Shown piece by piece: positions 5,158 through 50,200 of a stretch of 64,000 nucleotides of DNA. The position numbers and the translations under genes were made by a program. This DNA comes from Haliclona indistincta. Lineage: Eukaryota; Porifera; Demospongiae; Haplosclerida; Chalinidae. The stretch lies in contig OZ024792.1 in assembly GCA_964017065.1 (NCBI GenBank), positions 6,567,754-6,631,753 of the forward strand, written 5' to 3'. The notes under the pieces were generated by a model. That model had not been told where the DNA came from. It was given only the letters and a program-made list of their open reading frames with translations, and did not search any database. How positions within the stretch are numbered: position 1 is the stretch's first letter; each line of letters begins with the position of its first letter.

Positions 5158-8100
5158 ATGGCGACCAAGGTAAGGTCACTTTGGGTAAGTACATAAAGTG
5201 GGAGGGGCCCTAGCTGACATTTATTTGTAATTTCGGACGATTCCTAATTTGTCAGACACGCATTGATGTGGTTTAAGTTCACACAGCCTGCCCATAATCT
5301 GTACCACCATAGATAATACAGTACACGGTGGATATGCAGCAAGTTGAAGCAACGAGCCGGTATACTGCAATCCAGGGTGGGACGATCACTGCATTGGGTA
5401 ACACGGACGTTTCCAAATAATTATTTACAAGAAATGAATGGCAGCAGTAGTAGTGTGTGCTCAAGACAAAATATTGAGCTCCTTGATCCTTTTCTGCGTA
5501 CAAATGTGTTTTGATGCAGCAGGGCAAGGATGATAGTATTCGCTAGTATTTTCTTGGTATTATCAGTCTAGCCAATAATCTAATATAAAAACTGCAACAA
5601 CAAGCTTTTTCCCTGCTACTTGGGGCATGTCTGCTGTTCTCTACGAAGCGTAGCGCTCCAATAGTATTTTGATGCACTGCACTACACAATAAGCTACCAA
5701 AGACATACAACAAACCAGCACTACATAAACCAGCACTGTAATATTCGAACATAAGTAGCCGTAACACAGGATTTCAGGAAAAACATCAGAATTTGCAGCC
5801 TAGCATTATAACTAGGCCATTTTTAGCAACTGTCTCTTCAACAGCAAATGAACATGTGTGCTATTTGATTCAACTTCCACCCGGTTCTCACAACCGTGGA
5901 AACATCTTTACAACTTCGTGCAACTCGATCAGGAGCGATGGAGAGTGTCCCAGCACATCTCCGTGGATCCCTTCGTTTATCACACCGTTTTAATATCTAC
6001 CGTGTACTATATTATCTATTATACCACATGATAGCTATGATGTGTGCCTCAAACATGCTAACTATAGATGGTGATGGTATAAAGGTAACTTGCATGATCT
6101 GTTTCCAGTAGTGCTGCCACGATATAGAATTTGTAGGTCACATGTCATGAAGGATTATGAAGCAAAAATCTTTATGTTGATTTGATCAGGATACTTTCAG
6201 TTTAAAAGCTAATTCTCAACTACAGCGGTTTTATTACTTCTTGCAAGGAAGATTCGAGTGTAAAGTGTCACCTTGCAGTCACTAATGTGTCAAGTCACTG
6301 GTATTTATTCACAAAATGGAGCATGATCAAAGACTAAGGCAGCGTTCACACGGCTCCGCTTCAAAAGTAACCAGGTATCAGGTATTCGTTTTCATCCAAG
6401 AATGTACAGTGTTCACACGTATCCGTGTACATCGAAACTACTACTACTAGAGCCTGGGTACGAGGCTACAGCTATGCATGCATGCCTCCCAAGCGCATGC
6501 ACGACACTCATGTGCTAGTGTCTCTAAGTATTCGGAATCCCTGTTCACACGGCGCCTGATATTGACTCCGATTTCAAGGTCTCCACTAAAGTCTCCGGAT
6601 ACAAACGCACCTGGATTCAGTGTCCGTTTTCATTGGATGCTTTATCCTTGCAAGAAGTAATAAACGCTGTAACTGCACTAATCAGCAAATAATGTTCAAT
6701 ATACGACAGAAGTACATATCGATGATTATAGCAAAATGTATAGTCATTCTATTGTCATATCAATTATGTTGTGGCAGCACTAGTTTCCAATCCTGCGGTT
6801 ATGCTAAATACTTATTGTACTCACACGTACGATGCTTTGAAATTTTTCTCTTCTTTCTCTACTCTATCATCAACATCAGGAGGTGAGTAAAACTGAATCA
6901 TTGTGTGCATGTTATGTTGTTTGATTATTTCTTTTCTCTTCTCTGTCTACTCTATCATCAACATCAGGAGGTGAGTAAAACTGAATCATTGTGTGCATGT
7001 TATGTTGTCTTTTCTCTTCTCTGTCTACTCTATCATCAACATCAGGACGTGAGTAAAACTGAATTATTGTGTGCATGTTACTGTGTTTGATTATTTCTTT
7101 TCTCCTTCTCTGTCTACTCTATCATCAACATCAGGAGGTGAGTAAAACTGAATTATTGTGTGCATGTTACAGTGTTTGATTATTTCTTTTCTCTTCTCTG
7201 TCTACTCTATCATCAACATCAGCCGGTGAGTAAAACTGAATTATTGTGTGCATGTTATGTTGTTTGATTATTTCTTTTCTCTTCTCTGTCTACTCTATCA
7301 TCAACATCAGCTGGTGAGTAAAACTGAATTATTGTGTGCATGTTACTGTGTTTGATTATTTCTTTTCTCCTTCTCTGTCTACTCTATCATCAACATCAGG
7401 AGGTGAGTAAAACTGAATTATTGTGTGCATATTACCGTGTTTGATTATTTCTTTTCTCTTTCTCTGTCTACTCTATCATCAACATAAGGAGGTGAGAAAA
7501 ACTGAATGCATATTACCGTGTTTGATTATTTCTTTTCTCCTTCTCTGTCATCTACTCTATCATCAACTTCAGGATGTGAGTAAAACTGAATTATTGTGTG
7601 CATGTTTTACTTTACATTACAATTTTTCTTTGTCCTTCTCTATCATCAACATCATGCAGTTGGTAAGTTCAACTGAAATAGTCTATAATTATTTGCATGG
7701 ATTAATTTCTATCAACATCTGCTTGGAATAACATTTTGCTATTTCTTTGTTTGTCTGTTACTATAGCCTAAAGAGGTGAGTTGTGTCATCTATAGTGAAT
7801 TATAAAACTGCTTGTGAATTAATTTATTTTCTGTTGTCTTAGCATGATATCAGACAGGTGAGTGTCATGTTGTGGTGTGCTCAAGGATCACTAAGTAACT
7901 AAATAACTATTTATTTATTAGAAAAGTAAGAATTGTGTGTAGGTAAATGATTGCTCATTTTGAAATGTTTTGAGTGTCTGAGGTGTATTCCCAAGCACTG
8001 AAGAGTGAAAGTGTGGTGGTATCATATGGTCGTATCATGTTGATCGGTTTGGGAGCAGCAGGAAAGACTAGTCTGATACATGGCTTGATGAATCAGCAGC

Positions 8101-11100
8101 TACCTGACAGAGCTAACTCAACTATTCTGGCTAGTACTCGATCTGTCAAGTACTACTGGATAAAAACAGAGAAGGGTCGATATAGTCACTGGACAGAACT
8201 CTCCAATGAAGATAAGACTCAAGAAGTTGCTCAAGCTGCAAAGAGTTCAAATGTTCACCACTTAGGAAGGTAATTTGACTGTTCAGCTATATAGCATGCA
8301 TTTCATACTAGCAGTATAAATTGGTTCTTTTTTCTGTTGTACGTTTTATAGAGATCAGTCCATGTCATGTCAGGAAATTTTTGACAAAAGTGATCAATCA
8401 TTGGCACAGTACAGAGAGAATGTTGTTGAAAAAATGGTAGAATCTAAATCTCATGCTTCCAAAAATGAGGTGTTGCTGCACATCTGGGATTGTGGTGGTC
8501 AACCTGTGTTTCTCAGCGTTCTTCCTGCTTTTCTTAGCTCCAGAACAGTATTTCTACTTGTCTTTGATGCTTCTCTTGAGCTTGATGATCTTTGTAAAGT
8601 TATTGTCAATATTGATGGACATAGTCATATGAAAGAGACACTGGATATCTCTGCTTTGAGTCTCCTTCAGATGTGGATGGCTTCAATTCATGCTCGGTTT
8701 GGTGAAGGTGGTGAAGCATCTTGTCCTAGGATAATCGTAGTTGGCACTCATGCTGACCAGCTTGGACCAGATCAGTCTAAAAGGAAGTGCCTAGATAAGA
8801 TTTTGTCAGTTGTCATGGAAAAGGATTACTCCAACATTCTAATGGATGAGCTGGAAGGAATAATAGTTGACAATACTACTGCAGGAATGGGAGAGAGAGA
8901 AGATAAAGGAATCGGCCAGCTTCGAGAGACTATCCATGAATTTGTTCGAGACAATCTTTCTAAAGATACTCCAGTCAGTTGGGTTGAATTTCGCAATGTG
9001 TTGCAGCCCTATGTTAGAAAGCCAGTTGTGCAATTAGATGAAGTTTACATATGTGCTGGGAAATGTTCTATTCCTAGAGAGGAGGTTCCCAGTGCTCTCA
9101 ATTTCTACCATGAGCTAGGTGTGCTGTTGTTCTACCCTAATGTGCATGGCCTTGAGTCTGTGGTGATCCTAGAGCCCCAGTGGCTGGTTGATGTGTTTGG
9201 AACACTCTTTTGCAAGTGGAAATATCAAGATAAGCACAGAAAGATGTGTGCATTGTTTAGTGACTATGGTGTTCTTACTAAGCCACTCTACAATGAAGTA
9301 CTTAGACCGCTCTTAAAGGGCACTAATGTCACTCCTGATGCAGTCTTGAAATTGTTAGAAAAATTTCAATTGGCTGTTCAAATCGAAATAATTGACTTGT
9401 TTGAAACAGACAGCAAGCAATACTTTGTTCCTCTGATGTTGAAGCACAACAATGGTCTTGGTACAGTAGATGTGCAGTCTGCAGCTAATTCACCACAATC
9501 ATTTGTCAAAAGAGCATCTCCTCTTCACATTGTATTTAGATCTGGCTGCGTTCCTCCTGGCTTCTTTGTACGACTAGCAGCCTGTCTATCTAGTGAAAAA
9601 GGTGTCATAGTTGTCTTTTGTGTTGGCATCTGGTGTAATAAAATCACCATGCGTGTTAATGGGAGGGTGGACAAGTTGATTATCACTGAATACACGGACA
9701 CAGTGGAAATTCAATTTTTTTGTAAAGAAGAATCAGAAGAATCTTTTCGAATGTCGTGCAGAAATGTCTTCATGTTGTTGCAAAGGTCCTTTACTTCAAT
9801 CTCCGAATGGTTGCCAAAAGCAAATCCTCAGCTTGCTTTCTGTTGCACTCAGTGCATTGATCCAGCTCAGATGGCTTCTTTTAGACACCATCAAGATATA
9901 TATTGTAGATTTAGTCAGGAGCATACTGTGAGCGATTCTCTTCATTGTAAGCATAAAGATCACAGCTTCAAGCCTACTCATAGTCAACGATATTGGCTCT
10001 GCCCTGTTGACAAGGATAGTAAACAAGTCTCTAAGGTATAGCTATAATACGACAATTTCATTAGGGAACACTGTTGTTATTGTACTTCTCTAGGAGCTTC
10101 AAATTGCTGAGTCTCTCACTAGAGCCATGCATCTCACTGATATAGCAGCTCTTGCTAAAGAGCTGGAGATGATGCCAGCTACAGGCATTGTACCAGATGA
10201 CCTCATTGAACAGTTTTATAACACCGGTGGAGGTATTGTTGAGCTGGCTCGGTCCCTCAGAGCAATCAAGCTGAACACACTAGCTGACAAGTGAGATAAA
10301 TATGCTTGTTAATAAATTAATGTGTCATTGATCCCTGTGAATGAATGCTACATTATCTTGTTAATATCATGACAAGCAAATGTTTTGTACAGGTTAATTT
10401 CAGGGGATATAAATTTCACAGTACCTGATGAGTCACAGTCAAAGGGTATGATTATTATAGTGAACAGATTGTTGTTGATCTTTCTTTAGCCTCTAGTCCC
10501 TCAGTTAATGATTATGTTAGAGCAGTAAGCAATGTTACTGATTGGCATCAACTTGGCTTACATCTCGATCTGACTATGAGCCAATTACGCAAGATTGAAT
10601 CCACTTTCCGTACTGATGGTGTAGATAGAATGAAGGCTGAGATGCTCCACGTGTGGCAGAAATGTTATCCTGATGCATCTTGGAAAGAACTTATCATAGC
10701 TTTGGAAGATATGAACGAGAACAGTGTAGCTAATAAAATAGAAGAGAAATACTGTCCAATCACAGGTGATCAAGTGATTTAGTAGCATTGATATCATAAT
10801 CCATGCATTACCATTAGCAGCAGCTACTGTACCACCACCATCACATGCAGCTACCTCTACTGTACCACCACCATCACATGCAGGTACCTCTACTGTACCA
10901 CCACCATCACATGCAGGTACCTCTACTGTACCACCACCATCACATGCAGCTACCTCTACTGTACCACCACCATCACATGCAGCTACCTATACTGTACCAC
11001 CACCATCACATGCAGCTACCTATACTGTACCACCACCATCACATGCAGGTACCTCTACTGTACCACCACCATCACATGCAGGTACCTCTACTGTACCACC

Positions 11101-13257
11101 ATCATCACATGCAGCTACCTCTACTGTACCACCACCATCACATGCAGCTACCTATACTGTACCACCACCATCACATGCAGGTACCTCTACTGTACCACCA
11201 CCATCACATGCAGCTGCCTCTACTGTACCACCACCATCACATGCAGCTACCTCTACTGTACCACCACCATCACATGCAGCTACCTATACTGTACCACCAT
11301 CATCACATGCAGGTACCTATACTGTACCACCACCATCACATGCAGCTACCTATACTGTACCACCATCATCACATGCAGGTACCTATACTGTACCACCACC
11401 ATCACATACAGCTGCCTCTACTGTACCACCACCATCACATGCAGGTACCTATACTGTACCACCACCATCACATGCAGCTACCTATACTGTACCACCATCA
11501 TCACATGCAGGTACCTATACTGTACCACCATCATCACATGCAGGTACCTATACTGTACCACCACCATCACATACAGCTGCCTCTACTGTACCACCACCAT
11601 CACATGCAGGTACCTCTACTGTACCACCACCATCACATGCAGCTACCTCTACTGTACCACCACCATCACATGCAGCTACCTATACTGTACCACCACCATC
11701 ACATGCAGCTACCTATACTGTACCACCACCATCACATGCAGGTACCTCTACTGTACCACCACCATCACATGCAGGTACCTCTACTGTACCACCATCATCA
11801 CATGCAGCTACCTCTATACTGTACCACCACCATCACATGCAGCTACCTATACTGTACCACCACCATCACATGCAGGTACCTCTACTGTACCACCACCATC
11901 ACATGCAGCTGCCTCTACTGTACCACCACCATCACATGCAGCTACCTCTACTGTACCACCACCATCACATGCAGCTACCTATACTGTACCACCATCATCA
12001 CATGCAGGTACCTATACTGTACCACCACCATCACATGCAGCTACCTATACTGTACCACCATCATCACATGCAGGTACCTATACTGTACCACCACCATCAC
12101 ATACAGCTGCCTCTACTGTACCACCACCATCACATGCAGGTACCTATACTGTACCACCACCATCACATGCAGCTACCTATACTGTACCACCATCATCACA
12201 TGCAGGTACCTATACTGTACCACCATCATCACATGTAGGTACCTATACTGTACCACCACCATCACATGCAGGTACCTATACTGTACCACCACCATCACAT
12301 GCAGCTACCTATACTGTACCACCATCATCACATGCAGGTACCTATACTGTACCACCACCATCACATACAGCTGCCTCTACTGTACCACCACCATCACATG
12401 CAGGTACCTCTACTGTACCACCACCATCACATGCAGCTACCTCTACTGTACCACCACCATCACATGCAGGTACCTCTACTGTACCACCACCATCAGATGC
12501 TGTTGAATTGACAGCTCGTGTTAGTTCAGGTAATATTTTTATTTACCCATGACAAGAAAATAAAGTTTTGATTAATTCTTGTATCCCTCCACATTTATGT
12601 AGTGGAAGAACGGTGTCAGATGCCTCAATTGGAGCCCCAGAGCTACTTAAGTTTGATGAGAAAGCATTTGGACACTACTAGTATATTTCCAGGCAGAAAT
12701 CCTCTGGTGAGTTAACACTCGTGTTGGTAAGACTCATGATCATATGTATTATGTCTATAGGTAAAAGCAGGACTAGACTCAGAAACTGTCATCAAACATT
12801 CACCATCAGTTCTAAAAGGTTAGCTTTGTAATTCACTTTGTGACTTAATATTGAATTTCCATGCTCATTTCAGTTCCTACAGATCTTAGTGCTTCACCCT
12901 CTGTACCTCCCGCATCACCAGTATCCACTGTTGATCTATCTACCATACCTGATGATGGTACACTAAGTGAGTATTGTATGTTGTAGTGAGTGTATCAATG
13001 TGACTATGCTTGTATAATTGCTACATGCAGATATCTCAAATCTTAAAGATTTGTTGACAGCTCTGAAGTGTAAAAGCAGTGACTGGTTTGATCTTGGGCT
13101 ACAGCTCGAAGTGAATTATTGTGCTTTAAAAGAAATTGAAGCTGGTTACAGCAAAGCCAAACAGTGCATGCGAGAGATGCTTGCTGCATGGCTGAAGGGT
13201 CAGGGAGGAGAGTGTACTAAACAAGCTCTTGAAACAGCACTGTCAGAAATTGACTAG
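5158..13257 (+). CDS. Roco (Roc-COR) GTPase A, two Death domains, microexon N-terminus
   Basis: Predicted signalling GTPase. Proposed exons: 5158-5184 (M-A-T-K-V-R-S-L-W), the 3-nt microexons at 6880-7575, then 7660-7662, 7767-7775 (PKE), 7843-7857 (HDIRQ), 7922-7925, 7975-8269, 8352-10035, 10094-10290, 10393-10445, 10490-10765, 10818-12529, 12603-12706, 12761-12818, 12874-12966 and 13031-13257. Phases match at every junction. Roc motifs: P-loop GLGAAGKTS, switch DCGGQ and base-specificity THAD. A COR region follows (VSWVEFRNVL to ILEPQWLVDVFG), then a Cys/His-rich segment (CCTQC...CKHKDH). Death domain 1 is in 10490-10765 (DWHQLGLHLDL...SWKELIIAL); a second Death-like domain is in 13031-13257 (SDWFDLGLQLEVN). 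The repeat exon carries a +2 frameshift near 11815 leading to a stop at 12236, so this copy may be truncated there. If the 10765 donor is unused, a short form stops at 10782. The 7974 acceptor is GAG, a poor one. Confidence 0.75.
5185..6839 (+). other. Roco A intron 1 (duplicated non-coding block)
   Basis: A non-coding interval between exon 1 and the microexon array. It starts with GTAAGTACATAAA and is recognisable at 22335-24060, 29218-30610, 38307-40840 and 45368-46640, which marks the extent of the duplicated cassette. No conserved ORF is shared among all copies. A block at 6338-6640 looks like a separate insertion (listed separately). Confidence 0.6.
6338..6640. mobile_element. MITE-like insertion in Roco intron 1
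   Basis: A block of about 300 bp starting GGCAGCGTTCACACGG and ending near CCGTTTTCATTGGATGC, with inner segments that are reverse complements of each other (GTATTCGTTTTCATCC against GGATACAAACG-type sequence). It is present in the intron 1 copies at about 23551-23853 and 40259-40603 but replaced by unrelated sequence in the internal copies at 30340 and 46410. That presence/absence suggests an insertion. Element class and target duplication are not resolved. Confidence 0.4.
6840..7662 (+). repeat. Microexon array A: about 88-bp units, each with one 3-nt exon
   Basis: Nine tandem units plus a terminal variant. Each is an 86-nt intron starting GTGAGTAAAACTG and ending ACTCTATCATCAACATCAG, followed by a 3-nt core and the next GTGAGT. 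Cores: GAG 6880, GAG 6968, GAC 7046, GAG 7135, CCG 7223, CTG 7311, GAG 7400, GAG 7489 (AAG acceptor, GTGAGA donor), GAT 7573. A diverged last unit with TTG at 7660-7662 uses a TGCAG acceptor and a GTAAGT donor. Spacing is 78-89 bp, but AG-to-GT distance is always 3. Read as phase-0 codons these give acidic and hydrophobic residues and no stop. Confidence 0.85.
10818..12500 (+). repeat. 33-bp coding VNTR, about 51 units (Ser/Thr/Pro stalk, Roco A)
   Basis: Tandem 33-bp units encoding AATSTVPPPSH (variants AGTSTV, AATYTV, VPPSSH) in the frame set by splicing from the Death-domain exon (ACA G joined to CA GCA GCT). The stalk would be rich in Ser, Thr and Pro, like a mucin or flexible linker. One unit near 11811-11820 reads CCTCTATACT instead of CCTCTACT or CCTATACT, a +2 change that shifts the frame; the shifted frame meets TAG at 12236-12238. 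The other two frames are also largely open (MQLPLLYHHHH and YCTTTITCSYL), an effect of the repeat. Confidence 0.85.
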
Positions 13258-20400: not shown

Positions 20401-21054
20401 GATGTAATGAGAGATGATGAAACAAACTCTGATATCTCGTCTGCTGCTTCAATTGTTGTGCTGCCCACATTTCAGAGTCACCATCAAGTTCCTCCTGCCT
20501 TCTTGCGACAAGGATCACAGGGCTACGTTTCAGGCTCGACCTATTCTCACACACTGAGCTATGGCGACAGCCCACTTTATGATGAAGACGATGAAACCAG
20601 CACAAGAACAACTCCATTTCCTTTACAGCGTATTTTAGAAAGTCCTGTACCAAGGAGTGCTCTCCACTCACCAACTCGTCTTGACAACTCGTCGTATGCC
20701 TTTGCAAGAGGCAGCCATGCACGAGCAACAAGCCCAGCACGTGGGAGAGGGTTTTCTGCAGGCAGAGCAACTGGTCGCCTGTCTCCATCAAAGAGCACGT
20801 CAATGAGAGAAGTCTCTTACAATCCTCAATTTCGATTGGTGAGAACGTTTTCTCGTGAAAGCAGCACCACCATGGATTACGAGAGTGAAAGCTCCTGTCC
20901 CAGAGACACTCCAAGATTACAACATACCACTAGTCCTGGCTTAGCCGTGACTACCAAATCTTCTTCTCCCACGAGTGCACCAGCAGCAAATGACAACGAA
21001 AAACTCTATCGAACAACCAATCCTGTTCTAAAGGATACAGAATACTGGGTCTGA
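14471..21054 (+). CDS. CSPG4/NG2-like transmembrane proteoglycan, copy 2 (5' exons missing)
   Basis: Same family as the gene at 2-3859 but longer. Two visible exons: 14471-15323 and 15421-21054, with a 97-nt GT-AG intron joined in phase 0. The frame is open back to the acceptor at 14470, with T-A-A-V-P-D before the first Met at 14493. The true N-terminus must therefore lie on upstream exons, or was lost in the duplication. About 2,160 residues carry roughly a dozen CSPG repeats (for example ITRQPQHGKLILFG, YAHDGSENFLDSIGF), many N-glycosylation sequons, dibasic sites (RTKR, RSKR), a Thr/Ser/Pro stem, one transmembrane helix near 20180-20255 and a cytoplasmic tail of about 260 residues ending EYWV, a PDZ ligand like the QYWV of vertebrate CSPG4. 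Laminin-G domains are not visible. Upstream sequence is a dead retroelement and Roco A. Confidence 0.85.
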
Positions 21055-21600
21055 ATACACAGCAACTCATCATCATCTTCATCACATTCTGTTCAACCGG
21101 ACTTCTCCAGTATAAAAATTTCACCCATCAAAGAGTGATTTTTCATAAGTATATAATATTTCTGTCACCTTTATCTCTTGACTCACCGAAAAACAAAGCA
21201 CAAATCTATATTACGTATGCATGTCCGTAGATATTATGTTATGTTTTTGTAACATAGAACGTTTTATTGTTTCTGTATATACTGTGAACGACTCAATCTA
21301 CAGCCATTGTTCGAGACTCATGACTATTGTTACAAGTTATAATAATTATTGTTCAATGCGACAAAGCTGAAAAAAGTCACAACGTAAACTGAGCAGCATT
21401 TGGTAGAGATGCATGCGTTTGTAGCATCGTTCAACGACAGAGTACATCGTACAGTTTGTCTTCGTTACATTATTGTTAACGGGGTGAAGGTAAACCAAAA
21501 AATAATGGATAATAAATTTGATGTTACAAAGCTCTGAAAATTGGGATAAAAGTAGTAAGGAAAAAATGAACTAAAGTAATACTAAGCATTAGCACTATAT
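21055..21600 (+). other. 3' flank of CSPG4-like copy 2, no gene seen
   Basis: Counterpart of 3860-4408, with small indels. AT-rich 3'UTR-like sequence; no gene seen. Confidence 0.5.
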
Positions 21601-31300: not shown

Positions 31301-34300
31301 GTTATGGTGGTATGTGATTATTTCTTTCCTTCTTCTCTGTCTACTCTATCAACAACTTCAGAAGGTGAGTAAAACTGAATTATTGTGTACATGTTACGGT
31401 GTTTGACTATTTCTTTTCTCCTTCTCTGTCTACTCTATCATCAACATCAGTGGGTGAGTAAAACTGACTTATTGTGTGCATGTTACAGTGTCTGATTATT
31501 TCTTTTGTCCTTCTCTGTCTACTCTATCATCAACTTCAGAACGTGAGTAAAACTGAATTATTGTGTGCATGTTACGGTGTTTGATTATTTCTTTTCTTTC
31601 TCCATCATTAACATCAGCGGGTGAGTAAAACTGAATTATTGTGTGCATGTTACGGTGTTTGATTATTTCTTTTCTCCTTCTCTGTTTACTCTATCATCAA
31701 CATCAGCCGGTGAGTAAAACTGAATTATTGTGTGCATGTTACGGTGTTTGATTATTTCTTTTCTCCTTCTCCATCATTAACATCAGCGGGTGAGTAAAAC
31801 TGAATTATTGTGTGCATGTTACGGTGTTTGATTATTTCTTTTCTCCTTCTCTGTCTACTCTATCATCAACATCAGGAGGTGAATAAAACTGAGTTATTGT
31901 GTGCATGTTACAGTGTTTGATTATTTCTTTTCTCCTTCTCTGTCTACTCTATTATCAACATCAGAATGTGAGTAAAACTGAATTATTGTGTGCATGTTAC
32001 TGTGTTTAATTATTTCTTTTCTCCTTCTCTCTCAACTCCATCATCAACATCAGCCGGTGAGTAAAAATGAATTATTGTGTGCATGCTACTGTGTTTGATT
32101 ATTTCTTTTCTCCTTCTCTCTCAACTCTATCATCAACATCAGCCGGTGAGTAAAAATGAATTATTGTGTGCATGTTACAGAGTTTGATTATTTCTTTTCT
32201 CCTTCTCTCTCAACTCTATCATCAACATCAGATGGTAAGTAAAACTGAATTATTGTGTGCATGTTACAGTGTTTGATTATTTATTTTCTCCTTCTCTGTT
32301 TTATCTATAATCAACATCAGTCGGTGAGTAAAATTGAATTATTGTGTGCATGTTACGATGTTTGATTATTTCTTTTCTCCTTCTCTGTCTACTCTATCAT
32401 CAACATCAGCCGGTGAGTAAAATTGAATTATTGTGTGCATGTTACGGTGTTTGATTATTTCTTTTCTCCTTCTCTGTTTACTCTATCATCAACATCAGCT
32501 GGTGAGTAAAACTGAATTATTGTGTGCATATTACAGTGTTTGATTATTTATTTTCTCCTTCTCTGTCTACTCTATCATCAACATTAGGTGGTCAGTAAAA
32601 ATGAATTTTGTGTGCATGTTACAGTGTTTGATTATTTCTTTTCTCCTTCTCTGTCAACGCTATCATCAACAGCAGGATGTGAGTAAAACTGAATTATTGT
32701 GTGCATATTACGGTGTTTGATTATTTCTTTTCTCCTTCTCCATCATTAACATCAGTGGGTAAGTAAAACTGAATTATTGTGTGCATGTTACGGTGTTTGA
32801 TTATTTCTTTTCTCCTTCCCTCTCAACTCTATCATCAACATCAGCTGGTGAGTAAAAATGAATTTTTGTGTGCATGTTACGATGTTTGATTGTTTCTTTT
32901 CTCCTTCTCTCTCAACTCTATCATCAACATCAGAGAGTAAGTAAAACTGAATTATTGTGTGCATGTTACGGTGTTTGATTATTTCTTTTCTCCTTCTCTT
33001 TCTACTCTATCATCAACATCAGACGGTCAGTAAAACTGAATTATTGTGTGCATGTTACGGTGTTTAATTATTTCTTTTCTCCTTCTCTTTCTACTCTATC
33101 AACAACATCAGCCGGTGAGTAAAACTGAATTATTGAGTGCATGTTACGGTGTTTGATTATTTCTTTTCTCCTTCTCTCTCAACTCTATAATCAACATCAG
33201 GAGGTGAGTAAAACCGAATTATTGTGTACATGTTACAGTGTTTGAATATTTCTTTTCTCCTTCTCTGTCTACTCTATCATCAACATCAGGTGGTGAGTAA
33301 AACTGAATTATTGTGTGCTCGTTACAGTGTTTGATTATTTCTTTTCTCCTTCTCTGTCTATCTACCATCAACATCAGTATGTGAGTAAAACTGAATTATT
33401 GTGTGCATGTTTGACTTCACATTACAATTTTCCTTTCTCCTTCTCTACCATCAACATCATGCAGTGGGTAAGTTGAACTGAAATAGTCTGTAATTGTGTG
33501 CATGTAGTAATTTTTGTGAACACCTGCTTGAAATAACACTTTCTTCTTTCCTTGTTTATCTGTTACTATAGCCTAAAAAAGTGAGTTGTGTCATCTATAG
33601 TGAACTGTATTAATTAATTTATTTCCTGTTGTCTTAGCATGATATCAGACAGGTGAGTTTCATGTTGTGCTGTGCTCAGGGATCAAGTAACTAAACAACT
33701 ATTTATTTCATTAGGAAAGTAAGAATTGTGTGTAGGTAAGTGATTGCTCATTTTGAAATGTTTTCAGTGTCTGAGGTGTATTCCCAAGCACTGAAGAGTG
33801 GAAGTGTGGAAGTATCATATGGTCGTATCATGTTGATCGGTTTGGGAGCAGCAGGAAAGACTAGTCTGATACATGGCTTGATGAATCAGCAGCTACCTGA
33901 CAGAGCTAACTCAACTATTCTGGCTAATACTCGATCTGTCAAGTACTACTGGATAAAAACAGAGAAAGGTCGATATAGTCAGTGGACAGAACTTTCCACT
34001 GAAGATAAGACTCAAGAAGTTGCTCAAGCTGCAAAGAGTTCAAATGTTCACTACTTAGGAAGGTAATTTGACTGTTCAGCTATAGCATGCATTTCTTACT
34101 AGCTTTATAAGTTGGTTCTTTTGTTCTGTTGCGTTTTATAGAGATCAGTCCATGTCATGTCAGGAAATTGTTGACAAAAGTGATCAATCATTGGCACAGT
34201 ACAGAGAGAATGTTGTTGAAAAAATGGTAGAATCTGAGTCTCATGCTACCAAAAATGAAGTGTTGCTGCACATCTGGGACTGTGGTGGTCAACCTGTGTT

Positions 34301-38279: not shown

Positions 38280-41200
38280 ATGGCGACCAAGGAAAAGTCA
38301 CTTTGGGTAAGTACATAAAATGGGAGGGGGCCTGCCCTACATGCATGTAATTGTATTTTCGGACGATTCCTAATTCTGGACACTATTTAGCATGCATGAT
38401 GATTTGTCAGACATGCATTGATGTGGTTTCAGTGCTAATTATAATTTTTGTGCATTGCCTGACAATTGTCAGGCCAAGGCAAAGTTTGTCCGGACATCAA
38501 CAAAAAGTGACCAGATAAGACATACAGCATGCACTTCAATAATGTACTGAGGTAGCCTCTAAGTCTTGGTGTTTACAAAGCTGTTACAAGCCAAACCACA
38601 GCAAGTAGCTGTCACTCTGAGTGAAAACTTTCCCCTTTTACCACTATCAAAGCTGACTATTGTGTTTGGTATGACCTGACAATTATGTCAGAACAAAGAC
38701 TTATTTGACCTGTCATTGAAGCAATTTGACCAGACAAATGTCCGATGTCTGGACACAGGAGCACATGAACAGAAGGAGCGTGCAACTGTAAACCGCGCGT
38801 TAGTGCCAACAGTGTATAATTAGATTCACAGATGTGTGCTCAGAACTTCCATATTTGGAAGTTTTTGTGCTTCATTAAATATGCGTGACGTACGTTCTGT
38901 GCACGTGATACATAATAGATCTAAGTGCGGCAAGAGAGGATGGCGCGAACCCATCGACGTCTTAGTCAGGCCAGCTCCAAGAGAAAGCTGATCATGCTGT
39001 CTCCCCGGCGGATCCGTTTACAACAAGTGAAGAACTCGCCCGTGAGGAGCGCAATGAAAGCTGGGATGACCGTATTCAAGCTGAGCAACACCAGGCGCGC
39101 TCGCTGTCGTAAACTTACCAAGTAATGCGCGTTAAATAGATATGACGTACGTTCATACCTAGGTAAAGCGGAAGTACGTCATTAATTATTAAAGTGTTGG
39201 CACTGTACGTTGCACGCTCCTTCTGTTCATGTGCTCCTGCTGGACATTATAATTACCACTGCGGTTTAAGTTCTCTGTACCACCATAGATAATACAGTAC
39301 ACGGTGGATATGCAACGAGCCAGTATACTGCAATCTGGGGTGGGACAATCACTGCATTGGGTAACACGGACATTTACAAATATTTACAAGAAATGAATGG
39401 CAGCAGTAGTAGTGTGTGCTCAAGACAAAATATTCAGCTCCTTGATCCTTTTGTGCATACAAACGTATTTTGATGTAGCAGGGCATGGATTTTAGTATTC
39501 GCTGGTATATTCTTGGTATTATCAGTGTAGCCAATAATCTAACATAAAACCGTAACAACAAGCTTGTTCCCTGCTACTTGGGGCGTGTCTGCTGTTCTCT
39601 ACGAAGCGTTGTGCTCCTATAGTATTTTGATGCACTACACAATAAGCTACCAAAAACATACAACAAACCAGCACTAAACGTCAGAATTTGCAGCCTGGCA
39701 TTATAACAAGGCCATTTTATAGCAACAGTCTCTTCAACAGCAAATGAACACGTGTGCTATTTGATTTAGCTTCTACCCGCTTCTTGGAACCGTAGAAACA
39801 GCTTTACAACTTCGTGGAACTTGACCAGGAGCGATGGAGGGTGTCCCAGCACATCTCCGTGGATCCCTTTGTTTATCACACCGTTTTCATATCTACTGTG
39901 TACTGTATTATCTATTATACCACATGATAGCTATGATGTGTGCCTCAAACACTAACTATAGATGGTATAAGATGATCTGTTTCCAGTAGTGCTGCCACGA
40001 TATAGAATTTGTAGGTCACATGTCATGAAGGATTATTTCACTATTATCTATTTGAACTTGACAAAAATGAAGTAAAAATCTTTATGTTGATTCGATCAGG
40101 ATACTTTCAGTTTAAAAGCAGGTTAAAAGCTAATTCTCAACTACAGCGGTTTTATTACTTCTTGCAAGGAAGATTTGAGTGTGAAGTGTCACCTGGCAGT
40201 CACTAATGTGTCAAGTCACTGGTATTTATTCACAAAATGGAGCATGATCAAGGACTAAGGCAGCGTTCACACGGCTCGGCTTCAAAAGTAATCAGGTATT
40301 CGTTTTCATCCAAGGATGTACAGTGTTCACACGTATCAGTGTACACCGAAACTACTACTAGAGCCTGGGTACGAGGCTACAGCCATGCATGCATGCCTCC
40401 CAAGCGCATGCACGACACCAAGAGTTCATTACCAAGAGTTCATTAGGTAACGAACTCTTGACGACACTCATGTGCTAGTGACTCTAAGTATTCGGAATCC
40501 CTGTTCACACGGCGCCTGATATTGACTCCGATTTCAAGGTCTCCACTAAAGTCTCCGGATACAAACGTACCTGGATTCAGTATCCGTTTTCATTGGATGC
40601 TTTATCCTTGCAAGAAGTAATAAACGATGTAACTGCACTAATCAGCAAATAATGTTCAATAAACGACTGAAGTACATATCGATGATTATAGCATAATGTA
40701 TAGTCATTCTATTGTCATATCAATTATGTTGTGGCAGCACTAGTTTTCAATCCTGCGGTTATGTATTTAGTCTAAATACTTATTGTACTCACACGTACGA
40801 TGCTTTGACACTTTTCTCTTCTTTCTCTACTCTATCATCAACATCAGGATGTGAGTAAAACTGAAATATTTTATGCATGTTACCGTGTTTGATTATTTCT
40901 TTTCTCTGTCTACTCTATCATCAACATCAGATGGTGAGTAAAACTGAATTATTGTGTGCACGTTATGGTGTTTGATTATTTATTTTCTCCTTCTCTGTCT
41001 ACTCTATCAACAACTTCAGAAGGTGAGTAAAACTGAAATATTGTGTGCATGTTACGGGGTTTGATTATTCTTTTCTATTTCGCTTTCTACTCTATCATCA
41101 ACATCAGGAAGTGAGTAAGACAAAATTATTGTGTACATGTTACGGTGTTTAATTATTTCTTTTCTCCTTCTCTGTCTACTCTATCATCAACATCAGGAAG

Positions 41201-44200
41201 TGAGTAAGACAAAATTATTGTGTACATGTTACGGTGTTTAATTATTTCTTTTCTCCTTCTCTGTCTACTCTATCATCAACATCAGGGGGCGAGTAAAATT
41301 ATTGTGTGCATGTTACAGTGTTTGATTATTTCTTTTCTCCTTCTCTGTCTACTCTATCATCAACATCAGGAAGTGAGTAAGACAAAATTATTGTGTACAT
41401 GTTACGGTGTTTAATTATTTCTTTTCTCCTTCTCTGTCTACTCTATCATCAACATCAGGGGGCGAGTAAAATTATTGTGTGCATGTTACAGTGTTTGATT
41501 ATTTCTTTTCTCCTTCTCTGTCTACTCTATCATCAACATCAGAAAGTGAGTAATGCTGAATTATTGTGTGCATGTTATGGTGTTTGATTATTTCTTTTCT
41601 CCTTCTCTGTCTACTCTATCATCACCATCAGAGAGTGAGTAATGCTGAATTATTGTGTGCATGTTACAGTGTTTTATTATTTCTTTTCTCCTTCTTTGTC
41701 TACTCTATCATCAACATCAGGAGGTGAGTAAATAGTAGTTATATACCGATCAGGAGGTGTTTAAGCGATTTAAAGCCCGCGGGCGTAGCCCAAGAGCTTT
41801 AAATGCTTAAACACCGACTGTGAGGTATATAACTACTTTAAACCATAGTGCGCTGCTTGCCTAACGTCTAGCTGGCTACCTCGCGTCGCAGGAAGACCGC
41901 AGGGCAGCCCGAGCGCCATTTGTTTGTGGATTCTCGAATGCGGCGGCCATCTTGAAACGCTTGCGGGCTGTACACGATTTATAGCCCTCATTAACGGTCG
42001 TTACATCAAAGAGAATTATTCATACTATGGTTTAAAACTGAATTATTGTGTGCATGTTACAGTGTTTGATTATTTCTTTTCTCCTTCTCTGTCTACTCTA
42101 TCATCAACATCAGGTGGTGAGTAAAACTGAATCATTGTGTGCGTGTTACAGTGTTTGATTATTTCTTTTCTCTTTCTACTCTATCATCAACATCAGCCGG
42201 TGAGTAAAACTGAATTATTGAGAGCATGTTACGGTGTTTGATTATTTCTTTTCTCCTTCTCTGTCTACTCTATCATCAACATCAGCCGGTGAGTAAAACT
42301 GATTATACTGAGAGAATGTTACTGTGTTTGATTACTTCTTTTCTCCTTCTCTGTCTACTCTATCATCAACATCAGCCGGTGAGTAAATCTGGATTATTGT
42401 GTGCATGTTACGGTGTTTGATTATTTCTTTTCTCCTTCTCTGTCTACTCTATCATCAACATCAGACGGTGAGTAAAACTGAATTGTTGTGTGCATGTTAT
42501 GGTATTTAATTATTTCTTTTCTCCTCTTTCTACTCTATCATCAACATCAGCGGGTGAGTAAAACTGATTATTGTGTGAATGTTACGGTGTTTGATTATTT
42601 CTTTTCTCCTTCTTTGTCTACTCTATCATCAACATCAGGGGGTGAGTAAAACTGAATTATTGTGTGCATGTTACAGTGTTTGATTATTTCTTTTCTCTTT
42701 CTACTCTATCATCAACATCAGCCGGTGAGTAAAAATGATTATTGAGAGCATGTTACGGTGTTTGATTATATCTTTTCTCCTTCTCTGTCTACTCTATCAT
42801 CAACATCAGTATGTGAGTAAAACTGAATTATTGTGTGCATGTAATGGTATTTAGTTATTTCTTTTCTCCTTCTCTGTCTACTCTATCATCAACATCAGTT
42901 GGTGAGTAAAACTGAATTATTGTGTGCATGTTATGGTATTTAGTTATTTCTTTTCTCCTTCTCTGTCTACTCTATCATCAACATCAGGTGGTGAGTAAAA
43001 CTGAATTATTGTGTGCATGTTACAATGTTTGATTATTTCTTTTCTCCTTCTCTGTCTACTCTTGCTATCATCAACATCAGAAAGTGAGTAATGCTGAATT
43101 ATTCAGTCGAATCGCAACCGTACTTTCTATTTGCAAGCGGAAGAGGCGTGGTCGACTTTTTGGCAAGCTTTTTTCCTCGTCGAGTAGCCTGGTTGTTGGT
43201 AGATATTCTGAGACCAGGGAGTCCTATTTGCCGTTAAAACATCGATAACCCCCCTTGTGATTAATATGCGAATCTTTTTATCGAGTTTTGGATGCGCGTT
43301 TGCTACTGCTCAGAGAGCTGTGGAAGGATAAGTCCGAGGAAGCCATCGTCGCCATCTTGGCTGTGTCACACAAAAGTGTTTCCAACGTTGCTACGGTAAG
43401 CAGAACAGTAGTTTTCAAGTATTCTGTGTGTCAAGCTATGTTTTTAACACATGTTTGACTAGACTATACTGTGATTGCAGTTTTAATACGGAAGTGTACC
43501 TACGAGAAAGGAGACTAACTGGAATTATCAAGTGAGTCAAGTGTACATTATACTATTGAAATTGTTGCTCTAGCGTGTATATTTCCCAAAACTTGTAATG
43601 CAATGTTGTAGCTAAGGGCTTATTTGTAAAATAATGGGCTCTTCTGTGCCTTGGCTTAGTAAAGTAGATATATACTAGAGATGGGTTAGGTGAAAGTGCA
43701 CTCCTGTTTTAGGTTTTACACCACAAGAGGCACATGGAGTCGGTTGTTTAGTTTGTTATAAATCTCATAGTAGTACTTTTGACCAAGAAGATGAGGCTTT
43801 TCTGGCAGTTGTTCTACATGCAAGTATTCTCTAAGTACTTGTTCATTAAATGATGCTCGTGTTAGTGTACCCGAAGCTCTGCAAAGTTTGTGCATGCAGT
43901 GGTATTGCATGTCTTGCGATAGCATGTGTGTGTCCTGTGATAGCATGTCTGTGTCCTGTGATTGTGTGTCTTGCGATAGCATGTGTGAATACGCATCTTG
44001 AGATAGCATGCCTGTGTCTAGTAATCGTGTGTCTTGTAATAGCGTGTCTTACGATAGAGTGTGTGGCTCTGTTTCTTGTGATAGCATGCCGTGTACACAG
44101 TGACTTATCTTTTCCCATTTTGGCTTGTGTGAATGATTGTGACAGTACCTTTTGCCTTCCAGTTTATCCTTCTTACATGTTACAGCGGTTTCACTACTTC

Positions 44201-47200
44201 TTGCAATCTAAACGCGTCAACCGTAGAGCGTAAACCGTGGTCAGTCTGAATCACGCAATGTAATAAACCTTCCAAATAAGGCAAGGATCACGCTTTGCGC
44301 TTTTGTGGCTGTTGCAAGGAGTAATAAAACCGCTGTACACTATTGTGTGGTGGTAGTGTGTCCAGGTGTGCAAGTGCATAATCTTTTTCTTTCTCACTCC
44401 AGCGCTCAAAGCGGATCATATATCCTCCAGCTCTTCCACAGAGGAAGCATTCCTTTTTTGCTGATGGCTCCATTGCTATGATAACATCAATTATACGCAT
44501 CAATTTTGTATTACATTTGTGAAGTAATTTTAGAATTGTTAGAATCTCAGAACAGTAACTTTTAAAACATCACTTTGTAGCTACAAGTGTACTCTATCAC
44601 CTAGTGCTTGTAGATAGTGTGTACCTGCTTTAATACAGAAGTGTACCTAAGCTAAGTAGGTGCAATCAAAATACTGACCTTCTTTGTATTCCTAAGTGAA
44701 CTGCGTCTTCCAGCTGTTTTTGCTTTACGTTATTTGCATGCGAAGTACTTACACCTTTGTTCTACATGCTTGTAAAGTTAGGTTGGTCTAGCATCAATCA
44801 TGTAAGTGTGGCGAGCGTTTTAGTCGAGCGTCCTGTTTGCGCAAAAACGCCATTACTCGCGTGCGTGGGCGTACCCGTTGCAAATAAAATCCCAATGCCA
44901 TAATACAATAATTGTACGGTTGCGATTCGACTGTATTATGTGAATGTTACAATGTTTGATTGTTTCGTTTCTCCTTCTCTGTCTACTCTATCATCAACAT
45001 CAGAGAGTGAGTAATGCTGAATTATTGTGTGCATGTTACAGTGTTTGATTATTTCTTTTCTCCTTCTTTGTCTACTCTATCATCAACATCAGAGGGTGAG
45101 TAAAACTGAATTATTGTGTGCATGTTACAGCGTTTGATTATTTCTTTTCTCCTTCTCTGTCTACTCTATCATCAACATCAGAAAGTGAGTAATGCTGAAT
45201 TATTATGTGAATGTTACAATGTTTGATTATTTCGTTTCTCCTTCTCTGTCTACTCTATCATCAACATCAGACGGTGAGTAAAACTGAATTATTGTGTACA
45301 TGTTACGGTGTTTGATTATTTCTTTTCTCCTTCTCTGATTGCGAGAAAGAAGGAAAAGTCATTTTGGGTAAGTACATAAAATGGGAGGGGCCCTGCCCTT
45401 ATGTATTTGTAATTTCGGACGATTCCTAATTCCGGACACTATTAATGCGTGATGATTTGTCAGACACGCATTGATGTGATTAAATTTCACACAGCTAGTC
45501 TATAGCCAGTACCACCTAGATAATACAGTACACGGTGGATACGCAACAAGCCCGTATACTGCAATCCGTGGTGGGACAATCACTGCATCGGGTAACACGG
45601 GCGTTTCCAAACATTTACAAGAAAGAATGGCAGCAGTAGTAGTGTGTGCTATAGACAAATTTTCAGATCCTTGGTCGTTTTGTGCGTACAAACTTATTTT
45701 GATGCAGTAGAGCAAGGATGTTAGTATTCGCTTGTATTGCTTATGAATTCCTGGTATTATCAGTCTTTCCAATAATATAACATAAAAAAACGTAACAACA
45801 AGCTTGTTCCCTGCTACTTGGCTGTTCTATCTCTACGAAACGTAGTGCTCCAATAGTATTTGATGCACTGCTCTACACAATAAGCTACCGAAAAACGTTT
45901 TTATACAGCAAACCAGCACTAAACGTCAGAATTTGTAGCCTAGCATTATAACAAGGCCATTTTATAGCAACAGTCTCTTCAACAGCAAATGAACACATGT
46001 GCTATTTGATTCAGCTTCTTGGAACCGTAGAAACAGCTTTACAACTTCATGCAGCTCGACCAGGAGCTATGCAGTGAGTGTCCCAGCACATCTCTGTGGA
46101 TCCACTCGTTTATCACACCGTTTTCATATCTACTGTGTACTGTATTATCTATTATACCACATGATAGCTATGATGTGTGCCTCAAACATGCTAACTATAG
46201 ATGGTATAAGATGATCTGTTTCCAGTAGTGCTGCCACGATATAGAATTTGTAGATCACATGTCATGAAGGATTATTTCACTGTTATGAAGTAAATATCTT
46301 TATGTTGATTCGATCAGGATACTTTCAGTTTAAAAGCTAATTCTCAACTATAGCGGTTTTATTACTCCTTACAAATAGACTTGAGTGTAAAGTGTCACCT
46401 TGCAGTCACTAATCACTTTATCCTTGCAAGAAGTAAAAAACTGCTGTAACTGCATTAATCAATATTCAATACACGACTATAATTATTACACTGAAGTACA
46501 TATTGATGATTATAGCAAAATGTATAATAATTTATTGCACAGTCATTCTATTGACATGGCAGCACTAGTTTCCAGTCCTGCGGTTATTTTTAGTCTAAAT
46601 ACTGATTGTACCCACACGTACGATGCTTTGAAAATTTTCTCTTTTTCTCTGTCCACTCTATCATCAACATCAGGAGGTGAATAAAACTGAAATAGTGTGT
46701 GCATGTTACAGTGTTTGATTGTTTCTTTTCTCCTTCTCTGTCTACTCTATCAACAACATCAGAGGGTGAGTAAAACTGAATTGTTGTATGCATGTTACGG
46801 TGTTTGATTATTTCTTTTCTCCTTCTCTGTCTACTCTGTCATCAACATCAGATGGTGAGTAAGACTGAATTATTGTGTGCATGTTATGGTGTTTGATTAT
46901 TTCTTTTCTCCTTCTCTGTCTACTCTGTCAACAACTTCAGAAGGTGAGTAAAACTGAATTATTGTGTGCATGTTACGATGTTTGATTATTTCTTTTCTAC
47001 TTCGCTTTCTACTCTATCATCAACATCAGGAAGTGAGTAAGACAAAATTATTGTTTACATGTTATGGTGGTATGTGATTTCTTTCCTCCTTCTCTGTCAA
47101 CTCCATCAACAACTTCAGAAGGTGAGTAAAACTGAATTATTGTGTACATGTTACGGTGTTTGATTATTTCTTTTCTCCTTCTCTCTCTACTCTATCATCA

Positions 47201-50200
47201 ACATCAGTGGGTGAGTAAAACTGACTTATTGTGTGCATGTTACAGTGTCTGATTATTTCTTTTGTCCTTCTCTGTCTACTCTATCATCAACTTCAGAATG
47301 TGAGTAAAACTGAATTATTGTGTGCATTTTACGGTGTTTGATTATTTCTTTTCTCCTTCTCCATCATTAACATCAGGGGGTGAGTAAAACTGAATTATTG
47401 TGTGCATGTTACGGTGTTTGATTATTTCTTTTCTCCTTCTCTGTCTACTCTATCATCAACTTCAGAATGTGAGTAAAACTGAATTTTTGTGTGCATGTTA
47501 CGGTGTTTGATTATTTCTTTTCCCCTTCTCCATCATTAACATCAGCGGGTGAGTAAAACTGAATTATTGTGTGCATGTTACGGTGTTTGATTATTTCTTT
47601 TCTCCTTCTCTGTTTACTCTATCATCAACATCAGCCGGTGAGAAAACTGAATTATTGTGTGCATGTTACGGTGTTTGATTATTTCTTTTCTCCTTCTTTG
47701 TTTACTCTATCATCAACATCAGGAGGTGAATAAAACTGAATTATTGTGTGCATGTTACGGTGTTTGATTATTTCTTTTCTCCTTCTCTGTTTACTCTATC
47801 ATCAACATCAGCCGGTGAGAAAACTGAATTATTGTGTGCATGTTACTGTGTTTGATTATTTCTTTTCTCCTCTGTCTACTCTATCATCAACATCAGCCGG
47901 TGAGTAAAACTGAATTATTGTGTGCATGTTACGGTGTTTGATTATTTATTTTCTCCTTCTCTGTTTACTCTATCATCAACATCAGCCGGTGAGTAAAACT
48001 GAATTATTGTGTGCATGTTACGGTGTTTATTTCTTTTCTCCTTCTCTGTCTACTCTATCATCAACTTCAGAATGTGAGTAAAACTGAATTTTTGTGTGCA
48101 TGTTACGGTGTTTGATTATTTCTTTTCCCCTTCTCCATCATTAACATTAGCGGGTGAGTAAAACTGAATTATTGTGTGCATGTTACGGTGTTTGATTATT
48201 TCTTTTCTCCTTCTCTGTTTACTCTATCATCAACATCAGCCGGTGAGAAAACTGAATTATTGTGTGCATGTTACGGTGTTTGATTATTTCTTTTCGCCTT
48301 CTTTGTTTACTCTATCATCAACATCAGGAGGTGAGTAAAACTGAATTATTGTGTGCATGTTTTACTTTACATTACAATTTTTTTGTTCTCCTTCTCTATC
48401 ATCAACATCATGCAGTTGGTAAGTTCAACTGTATTAGTCTATAATTATTTGCATGGATTAAGTCTATCAACATCTGCTTGGAATAACATTTTCCTATTTC
48501 TTTGTTTATCTGTTACTATAGTCCAAAGAGGTGAGTTGTGTCATCTATAGTGAACTATAAAACTGCTTGTGAATTGATTTATTTTTCTTTTGTCTTAGCA
48601 TGATATCAGACAGGTGAGTTTCATGTTGTGCTGTGCTCAAGGATCAAGTAACTGAATAACTATTTATTTTATTAGGAAAGTAAGAATTGTGTGTAGGTAA
48701 ATGATTGCTCATTTTGAAATGTTTTGAGTGTCTGAGGTGTATTCCCAAGCACTGAAGAGAGGAAGTGTGAAGGTATCATATGGTCGTATCATGTTGATCG
48801 GTTTGGGAGCAGCAGGAAAGACTAGTCTGATACATGGCTTGATGAATCAGCAGCTACCTGACAGAGCTAACTCAACTATTCTGGCTAGTACTCGATCTGT
48901 CAAGTACTACTGGATAAAAACAGAGAAGGGTCGATATAGTCACTGGACAGAACTTTCCAATGATGATAAGACTCAAGAAGTTGCTCAAGCTGCAAAGAGT
49001 TCAAATGTTCACCACTTAGGAAGGTAATTTGACTGTTCAGCTATAGCATGCATTTCTTACTAGCAGTATAAGTTGGTTCTTTGTTCTGTTGTACGTTTCA
49101 TAGAGGTCAGTCCATGTCATGTCGGGAAAGTGTTGACAAAAGTGATCAATCATTGGCACAGTACAGAGAGAATGTTGTTGAAAAAATGGTAGAATCTAAG
49201 CCTCATGCTTCCAAAAGTGAGGTGTTGCTGCACATCTGGGATTGTGGTGGTCAACCTGTGTTTCTCAGCGTTCTTCCTGCTTTTCTTAGCTCTAGAACAG
49301 TATTTCTACTTGTCTTTGATGCTTCTCTTGAGCTTGATGATCCTTGTAAAGTTATTGTCAATATTGATGGACATAGTCACATGAAAGAGACACTGGATAT
49401 CTCTGCTTTGAGCCTCCTTCAGATGTGGATGGCTTCAATTCATGCTCGGTTTGGTGAAGGTGGTGAAGCATCTTGTCCTAGGATAATCTTAGTTGGCACT
49501 CATGCTGACCAGCTTAGACCAGATCAGTCTAAAAGGAAGTGCCTAGATAAGATTTTGTCAGTTATCAAGGAAAAGGATTACTCCAACATTCTAATGGATG
49601 AGCTGGAAGGAATAATAGTTGACAATACTACTGCAGGAATGGGAGAGAGAGAAGATAAAGGAATCGGCCAGCTTCGAGAGACTATCCACGAATTTGTTCG
49701 AGACAATCTTTCTAAAGATACTCCAGTCAGTTGGGTTGAATTCCGCAATGTGTTGCAGCTCTATGTTAGAAAGCCAGTCGTGCAATTGGATGAAGTTTAC
49801 AGATGTGCTGGGAAATGTTCTATTCCTAGAGAGGAGGTTCCAAGTGCTCTTAATTTCTATCATGAGCTTGGTGTGCTGTTGTTCTATCCTAATGTGCATG
49901 GCCTTGAGTCTGTGGTGATCCTAGAGCCCCAGTGGCTGGTTGATGTGTTTGGAACACTCTTTTGCAAGTGGAAATATCAAGATAAGCACAGGAAGATGTG
50001 TGCATTGTTTAGTGACTATGGTGTTCTTACTGAGCCACTCTACAATGAAGTGCTTAGACCGCTCTTAAAGGGCACTAATGTCACTCCTGATGCTGTCTTG
50101 AAATTGTTAGAAAATTTTCAATTGGCTGTTCAAATCGAAATAATTGACTTGTTTGAAACTGTCAGCAAGCAGTACTTTGTTCCTCTGATGTTGAAGCACA

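Follow-up and report, generated by a model that had tools for sequence, protein, structure and literature searches.

Putative single-codon exons in front of ROCO-type GTPase genes

What does a gene make of a long series of intron-like units that stand only three bases apart? This question is raised by a 64-kb stretch of the genome of the sponge Haliclona indistincta (hereafter the window; contig C10:6567754-6631753, in a genome of 144 Mb in 46 contigs), where each of three GTPase genes, here named A, B and C, is preceded by a tandem array of a unit that resembles a short intron (about 86 nt, with a GTGAGT donor, a pyrimidine tract and an AG) followed by exactly three bases. The answer that we favour, with a probability of about 0.78 judged from the pattern in the DNA, is that the triplets are predicted single-codon exons that would be joined serially between exon 1 and the GTPase exons, giving each paralogue a hypervariable N-terminal peptide of its own, 10 to 78 residues long. 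The data are from DNA of one individual of this one species.

The three genes have a common order, all on the + strand: exon 1, an intron-like stretch of 1.7 to 2.5 kb, the array, a terminal variant unit, a 9-nt exon, a 15-nt exon and the GTPase exons, which open with VYSQAL. Exon 1 is 27 nt long, has the sequence ATGGCGACCAAGGAAAAGTCACTTTGG or a near variant of it, and reads MATKEKSLW or similar. The features upstream of the GTPase exons are as follows.

5158..5184, +, gene A predicted exon 1 (MATKVRSLW, 27 nt, phase 0; an in-frame stop lies 8 codons before its ATG)
6880..7662, +, gene A array, 10 single-codon units (EEDEPLEED plus terminal L)
7767..7775, +, gene A predicted 9-nt exon CCTAAAGAG (PKE)
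7843..7857, +, gene A predicted 15-nt exon CATGATATCAGACAG (HDIRQ)
22308..22334, +, gene B predicted exon 1 (MATKEKSLW)
24093..24715, +, gene B array cluster 1, 8 units
27519..28477, +, gene B array cluster 2, 12 units
29121..29123, +, gene B isolated unit (GAG), adjoining an exon-1-like copy
30654..33467, +, gene B array cluster 3, 29 units found by script plus AAG at 30909-30911, the last unit being TGG
33572..33580, +, gene B predicted 9-nt exon CCTAAAAAA (PKK)
33638..33652, +, gene B predicted 15-nt exon (HDIRQ)
38280..38306, +, gene C predicted exon 1 (MATKEKSLW)
40848..43083, +, gene C array cluster 1, 23 units (two GC donors)
45004..45273, +, gene C array cluster 2, 4 units
46674..48418, +, gene C array cluster 3, 21 units, the last being TTG
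48522..48530, +, gene C predicted 9-nt exon TCCAAAGAG (SKE)
48599..48613, +, gene C predicted 15-nt exon (HDIRQ)

The array unit and its constant spacing

The unit is laid out as GTGAGTAAAACTGAATTATTGTG, a pyrimidine tract and CTATCATCAACATCAG, after which the three bases follow. On the + strand of the window, the exact donor GTGAGTAAAACTG occurs 69 times and the exact acceptor ATCATCAACATCAG 71 times, and on the other strand both counts are 0. When mismatches were allowed, a script found 108 units (10 in gene A, 50 in B and 48 in C) with 23 distinct triplets, and the extra AAG unit of gene B, spotted by eye only, brings the window total to 109. Three of the units, one per gene, are terminal ones with the variant acceptor CATCATGCAG and the triplets TTG, TGG and TTG. 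A first-pass annotation of this DNA, made from its letters alone, had counted about 106 tandem units and 23 core values; our total equals its 106 plus the three terminal variant-acceptor units, and the script arrived at the same 23. The constant gap of 3 nt between AG and GT that it described holds throughout the window, including the shortened and mutated units (e.g., a shortened intron whose donor, at 28211, lies 65 bp past the preceding one, and two GC donors at 41289 and 41462), since units with an apparently different gap re-anchor to AG-3-GT, the cause of the shift being small changes beside the sites.

A genome-wide pattern search extended the sample; the array loci are places among the matches listed, and 21 stretches of 10 kb around them were taken for gene modelling. 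The first 15 of these stretches, together with the window, cover 289 of the 296 genomic matches to a 22-nt unit pattern (at most 3 mismatches allowed) and 228 of the 239 occurrences of the exact donor in the genome. In this set the AG-3-GT/GC spacing was found in 393 of 396 units, and in the other three, none of which lies in the window, the AG or the GT is destroyed rather than respaced. The distance between neighbouring units is looser: 89 bp is the commonest value, and 159 of the 355 pairs lying 60-110 bp apart have another one, while 38 of 393 spacings exceed 110 bp, some of them owing to a diverged unit being missed. The pattern is not due to chance, because the same pattern read backwards gave 3+3 matches in the genome versus 127+112 forward; this control and the conservation of the columns rule out a chance or low-complexity repeat.

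Variation within the unit is concentrated in the triplet. Its three columns have entropies of 1.91, 1.92 and 1.04 bits, and the flanking columns range from 0 to 1.06 bits, with column +25 (1.50) as the sole exception. In effective number, 17.8 trinucleotides occur at the core and no more than 6.2 in windows that do not overlap it, bearing out the near-constant flanks and variable core that had been noticed before. The plain number of distinct core trinucleotides, 30, is unexceptional, since rare variants bring other windows to 37.

Ten gene copies carry the arrays

Array loci were found on contig C3 (three), on C6 (one) and on C10, in the window and on both sides of it. Counted by one script, the ten gene copies at these loci hold 403 units, 400 of them intact and three with a dead splice site, and range from 10 to 78 units each: C3a 20, C3b 78, C3c 53, C6-1 52, C6-2 25, C10up 35, A 10, B 50, C 48 and D 32. 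In all ten copies a 27-nt exon 1 in phase 0 is followed by a GTAAG donor, it being understood that the search pattern had preset the 27-nt length and a following GTAAG or GTGAG. An in-frame stop lies eight codons 5' of the ATG in nine copies, and further up in C3a. The HDIRQ exon and then the GTPase are reached in nine of the ten copies. Of these nine GTPase-linked copies, six have a 9-nt exon found by the script and two more (C3a and C6-1) have one that is visible, D having been covered by the script alone. The copy C10up, whose 35 units start at about 6562075, has its own exon 1 (MVTKEKSLW) and no GTPase exons before the next exon 1; its array holds an alternation of GAG and AGA with identical 140-nt flanks.

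Genes B and C each contain a second exon-1-like copy, at 29188-29217 and 45338-45367, respectively, fused to half an array unit; it reads ATGGCGAGAAAGAAGGAAAAGTCATTTTGG in B and has ATT instead of ATG in C. These internal copies are possibly an alternative first exon or a scar of unequal exchange.

The triplets behave as would be expected of spliced codons

If the arrays are spliced, the splice dinucleotides should stand out. In the 379 units with a gap of 3, the four dinucleotide columns have 1, 1, 1 and 2 mismatches, and the other 28 columns 1 to 59 each. Counted by cells, AG/GT is mismatched in 5 of 1516 (0.3%) versus 714 of 10612 (6.7%) elsewhere (Fisher p 2e-35; the units are related through duplication, so that this and the following p-values are overstated and only indicative).

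The triplets also read as codons. Exon 1, the 9-nt and 15-nt exons and the VYSQAL exon are all compatible with phase 0, and when the triplets of the ten copies were joined, with dead units excluded, phase 0 contained no stop, phase 1 contained 11 and phase 2 contained 22. Column shuffles predict 16.7 stops among the 400 triplets, and there are none. Likewise, YAG triplets (CAG and TAG) number 0 of 400 versus 42.6 expected from column shuffles, and GAG and AAG are common; a YAG triplet would create a competing acceptor and thereby remove the codon. The commonest third base is G, matching the preference of the donor. NAT, however, accounts for 45 of the 53 T-ending triplets and NAG for 89 of the 307 G-ending ones (Fisher 1e-14), a contrast that persists on distinct gene-triplet pairs (16/20 vs 15/82, p 4e-7). 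In the TA box all 10 triplets are TAT, whereas the other boxes end in G in 307 of 390 cases. The NAT triplets encode Asp, Tyr and Asn, amino acids that have no G-ending codon. The third-base pattern looks like selection on the amino acid, although a few founder units could supply part of it. Joined in this way, the predicted peptides read, for example, EEDEPLEEDL in gene A and ERMEDIDELPRLPEPLEEEEDIEEEIERLRML in gene D.

Triplets can change faster than their surroundings

The window offers a direct comparison in a duplicated block (1-7507 and 17196-24731, 94% identity) that comprises the end of a Cadherin_3 (CSPG4-like) gene, exon 1 and the array. When the arrays A and B1 of this block are aligned, the triplets differ at 12 of 24 sites (50%) and the rest at 29 of 637 (4.6%); the intron near the arrays differs at 34 of 1408 sites, and dS for the GTPases of this gene pair is 0.07. 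Between arrays B2 and C2, where the register of the alignment is less certain, the triplets differ at 43 of 63 sites vs 148 of 1734 for the rest. An introner-like insertion of introns between the codons of an older exon is disfavoured by the codons that A and B1 do not share (the 12 of 24 core sites), even though the first four B2/C2 units agree.

The same contrast appears across the whole set of units. In 840 unit pairs with 0 mismatches in 60 flanking bases the mean triplet difference is 1.61 of 3, vs 1.8 for unlike units, and eleven 3-base windows elsewhere in the unit give 0.04 to 0.40 (in pairs with at most one other flank mismatch). There are 25 unit pairs with 140 identical flanking bases, and 14 of them differ in the triplet, 9 of those coming from the GAG/AGA stretch of C10up.

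The downstream genes encode ROCO-type GTPases

The features downstream of the arrays are listed below. Genes A, B and C were scanned for Roc and COR-A, and gene A also for Death (cut-offs of 27, 35.3 and 22.6 bits, respectively).

7983..8269, +, gene A first GTPase exon (VYSQAL...GLGAAGKTS P-loop; Roc 25.2 bits, below the cut-off of 27)
8350..10038, +, gene A second GTPase exon, rest of Roc and COR-A (31 and 52.2 bits)
10432..10782, +, gene A Death-domain reading frame (37.3 bits over 10432-10767)
10824..12500, +, gene A 33-bp tandem repeat, TVPPPSHAATS-type, after the Death domain
33776..35831, +, gene B GTPase exons (Roc and COR-A matches in the second)
36209..36559, +, gene B Death-domain reading frame (assigned from its resemblance to gene A, not from a domain scan)
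48737..50793, +, gene C GTPase exons (Roc and COR-A matches in the second)
51187..51537, +, gene C Death-domain reading frame (assigned from its resemblance to gene A, not from a domain scan)

The second GTPase exon matches Roc with 31 bits in A, 30 in B and 28.7 in C, and COR-A with 52.2, 53.6 and 52.3 bits, so that the three genes belong to the ROCO-type (Roc-COR) GTPase family. The P-loop exon of gene A taken alone gives 25.2 bits for Roc, the domain being split by an intron. With Death at 37.3 bits in gene A, it is likely that the nine copies encode a GTPase carrying a death domain, these nine being the copies counted at array loci. The second GTPase exon is open over 573 to 590 aa in eight of the nine copies and is shortened to 320 aa in C6-1; its dN/dS ranges from 0.20 to 0.67 and is below 1 in 36 of 36 pairs. 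In a protein search for relatives, the three closest among the best 120 of 687 matches (P0001-P0003) are single-exon frames from which the first GTPase exon is absent, and thus they are uninformative on splicing. No relatives were found among viral contigs, and a plasmid search with the GTPase exon as query gave no match.

Several other elements lie around these genes. The 33-bp repeat of the TVPPPSHAATS type follows the Death frame in all three, at 10824-12500, 36597-36833 and 51575-52421, in about 51, 7 and 26 copies. Between the GTPase genes A and B there is an open frame of 1884 aa (15400-21054) with ten Cadherin_3 matches. Further downstream are a GAGT tetranucleotide repeat of about 94 copies (55659-56036) and, on the - strand, an open frame of 1030 aa (59215-62307) with a YADD motif, which we take to be perhaps a retroelement reverse transcriptase.

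How the arrays could work, and the alternative explanations

The first-pass annotation had proposed a variable peptide, built one amino acid per exon, in front of a Death-domain GTPase. Its central part, that the units are single-codon exons, is supported by the phase-0 exon 1, the stop-free phase 0, the conservation of the dinucleotides and the fast divergence of the A/B1 triplets, and the nature of the downstream protein by Roc and COR-A in genes A to C and Death in gene A. Variability is seen between paralogues at the DNA level, whereas variability between transcripts is only possible.

On this basis we propose that splicing would be intron-defined, over the introns of about 86 nt, and stepwise, since donor and acceptor complexes could hardly co-occupy sites 3 nt apart. 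At each step one 3-nt exon would be joined, bringing the next GTGAGT to the end of the growing 5' exon, where it could serve as donor for the next acceptor. Most units would normally be included, because both splice sites are intact in 400 of 403, even as the remaining intron drifts. As every exon is a complete codon, the reading frame would always survive unequal exchange as well as the loss or skipping of units, which would allow a fast change of peptide length and sequence while the introns are homogenised. Diversifying selection probably acts on the triplets, as would suit a surface that serves a death-domain signalling protein for recognition or evasion; that the peptides take part in recognition, or in escape from it, is our guess from the family and the fast change.

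Several observations weigh against this proposal. The first four aligned B2/C2 units have no triplet difference (0/12, with 15/366 at non-core sites), and thus not every triplet is fast-changing; 11 of the 25 pairs with 140 identical flanking bases have the same triplet, and reshuffling of a bank of triplets by gene conversion could imitate part of the fast divergence. The avoidance of stops overlaps with that of YAG: without TAG, the count of TAA and TGA is 0 vs 2.6 expected (p 0.07), and stop avoidance was dropped as a stand-alone argument, TAG being also a YAG acceptor. No CAN triplet occurs among the 400 (37 expected), so that His and Gln are never encoded, and neither is Cys; competition between acceptors accounts for CAG and not for CAA, CAC or CAT. 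Hydrophobic-moment tests of the joined peptides gave no signal of order or helix, 0 of 9 genes falling below 5% (gene A was too short). To our knowledge, it would be unusual for a spliceosome of any kind to deal with 400-odd 3-nt exons across ten gene copies.

The alternatives have to account for the same observations. If the arrays were a non-functional minisatellite, i.e., tandem copies of an intron piece that chanced to hold an acceptor and a donor and are free of selection, then unit length and copy number could vary as they do, and C10up without GTPase exons before the next exon 1 and the shortened GTPase frame of C6-1 would fit as well. However, the mismatch at AG-3-GT is 20-fold below that of other columns, YAG is absent, only one phase is stop-free and the structure precedes all nine GTPase copies found, so we give this explanation very little credence. 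The arrays might rather be ratchets or decoys of splicing, for the recursive removal of the long first intron or the tuning of expression, with a three-base payload that is irrelevant or skipped and exon 1 joined to the 9-nt or 15-nt exon. Each unit does resemble a ratchet point in having an acceptor with a donor close behind, the clusters are parted by long stretches (the 38 of 393 spacings above 110 bp), and three bases are the cheapest frame-neutral payload. A neutral payload, though, should diverge as the intron does, and not by 50% vs 4.6% as between A and B1; nor would it be expected that the amino acid governs the third base and that payload-removing YAG triplets are absent. We therefore consider it improbable that the payload is immaterial.

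Two further alternatives accept, or are compatible with, triplets that are exons. Local hypermutation instead of selection could vary them, and 11 of the 25 pairs with identical 140-nt flanks differ at all three bases, 9 of them from the GAG/AGA alternation of C10up; but the triplets comply with the rules of coding and splicing (YAG and stops are absent, and the third base depends on the amino acid), and we know of no mechanism that mutates just three bases between AG and GT. Hypermutation as the source thus seems unlikely to us. Combinatorial splicing is a variant of the favoured serial joining, and the odds of the two overlap: each transcript would walk the array and take a different ordered subset of codons, giving an immense set of in-frame, stop-free N-terminal peptides per gene, a diversity system for intracellular recognition or self/non-self. 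The donors and acceptors of an array are nearly alike, any acceptor-donor joining is in frame and stop-free, and very small exons can easily be skipped, with examples in PMC4674806. Free skipping would nevertheless make the loss of an acceptor almost harmless, and yet acceptors and donors are equally kept (the 1, 1, 1 and 2 mismatches of 379), so that we entertain this variant tentatively, as a conceivable extension of serial joining.

Comparison with known systems

Dscam arrays consist of Ig-domain exons that are used in a mutually exclusive manner. As in Dscam, which is mentioned in PMC11378527, arrays of similar exons could diversify one region of a protein; unlike in Dscam, the predicted sponge exons are single codons and the frame would be kept with any number of them included. 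The remaining comparisons follow excerpts of the cited papers.

The closest precedent that we met appears to be the brown algal ROCO family, whose genes have arrays of 72-bp leucine-rich repeat (LRR) exons, shuffled and alternatively spliced, before the GTPase; diversifying selection has been reported for these arrays, and alternative splicing was proposed as a source of immune receptor diversity (PMC11378527). Both systems belong to the Roc-COR family and place a tandem, frame-neutral exon array N-terminal to the GTPase. They differ in that one algal exon of 72 bp corresponds to one LRR, whereas the predicted sponge exon amounts to a single codon, it is the introns that are conserved, and a C-terminal Death domain is present in gene A.

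Schistosome micro-exon genes (MEG) have 10 to 20 exons of 6 to 81 bp per gene (3-81 is also given), mostly of 15 bp, with introns of up to 5 kb, and encode secreted proteins (PMC10526429). They share with the sponge genes the series of very small exons, and MEG exons are mostly multiples of three. In contrast, the predicted sponge exons are of 3 nt, up to 78 per gene, lie between near-identical introns of about 86 nt and precede a GTPase. The exon sizes and long introns that mark MEG are thus not seen here, the predicted array exons being of 3 nt and their commonest spacing 89 bp.

Tiny exons of 3 or 1 nt are known in isolation, as in Drosophila hth (PMC7392893) and Arabidopsis APC11, where intron definition with recursive splicing has been proposed for the 1-nt exon (PMC4674806), and the fungal lipS gene has two 3-nt exons (PMC5639578). 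These cases show that spliceosomes can include such exons; the excerpts describe one or two per gene and no hypervariable tandem arrays. In recursive splicing (RS-exons, PMC6224609; fly ratchet points, PMC8605326) a splicing event recreates the donor for the next step, as we propose for the sponge arrays. Ratchet points, however, juxtapose acceptor and donor around a zero-length exon, and three bases intervene in all 400 intact sponge units.

The first-pass annotation had been aware of no tandem arrays of single-codon exons, and none appeared among the matches listed in the open-licence literature on microexon arrays, 3-nt or single-codon exons, and sponge or hypervariable microexons. As predicted from its sequence, the hypervariable array of single-codon exons would be without counterpart among the systems compared.

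Implications

If the triplets are spliced in, they would be the smallest whole-codon exons that serve as building blocks, one exon for one amino acid and up to 78 in series, and the usual working view of very small exons as rare curiosities would be overturned. Stepwise splicing through a long series of 3-nt exons would then be shown. Standard annotation is likely to miss 3-nt exons, and comparable genes may therefore be overlooked elsewhere. Such a gene would be an inverted one, with homogenised introns and hypervariable exons, and it would provide a new route to diversify a ROCO-Death signalling protein, in a family for which variation through exon arrays is already known in brown algae.

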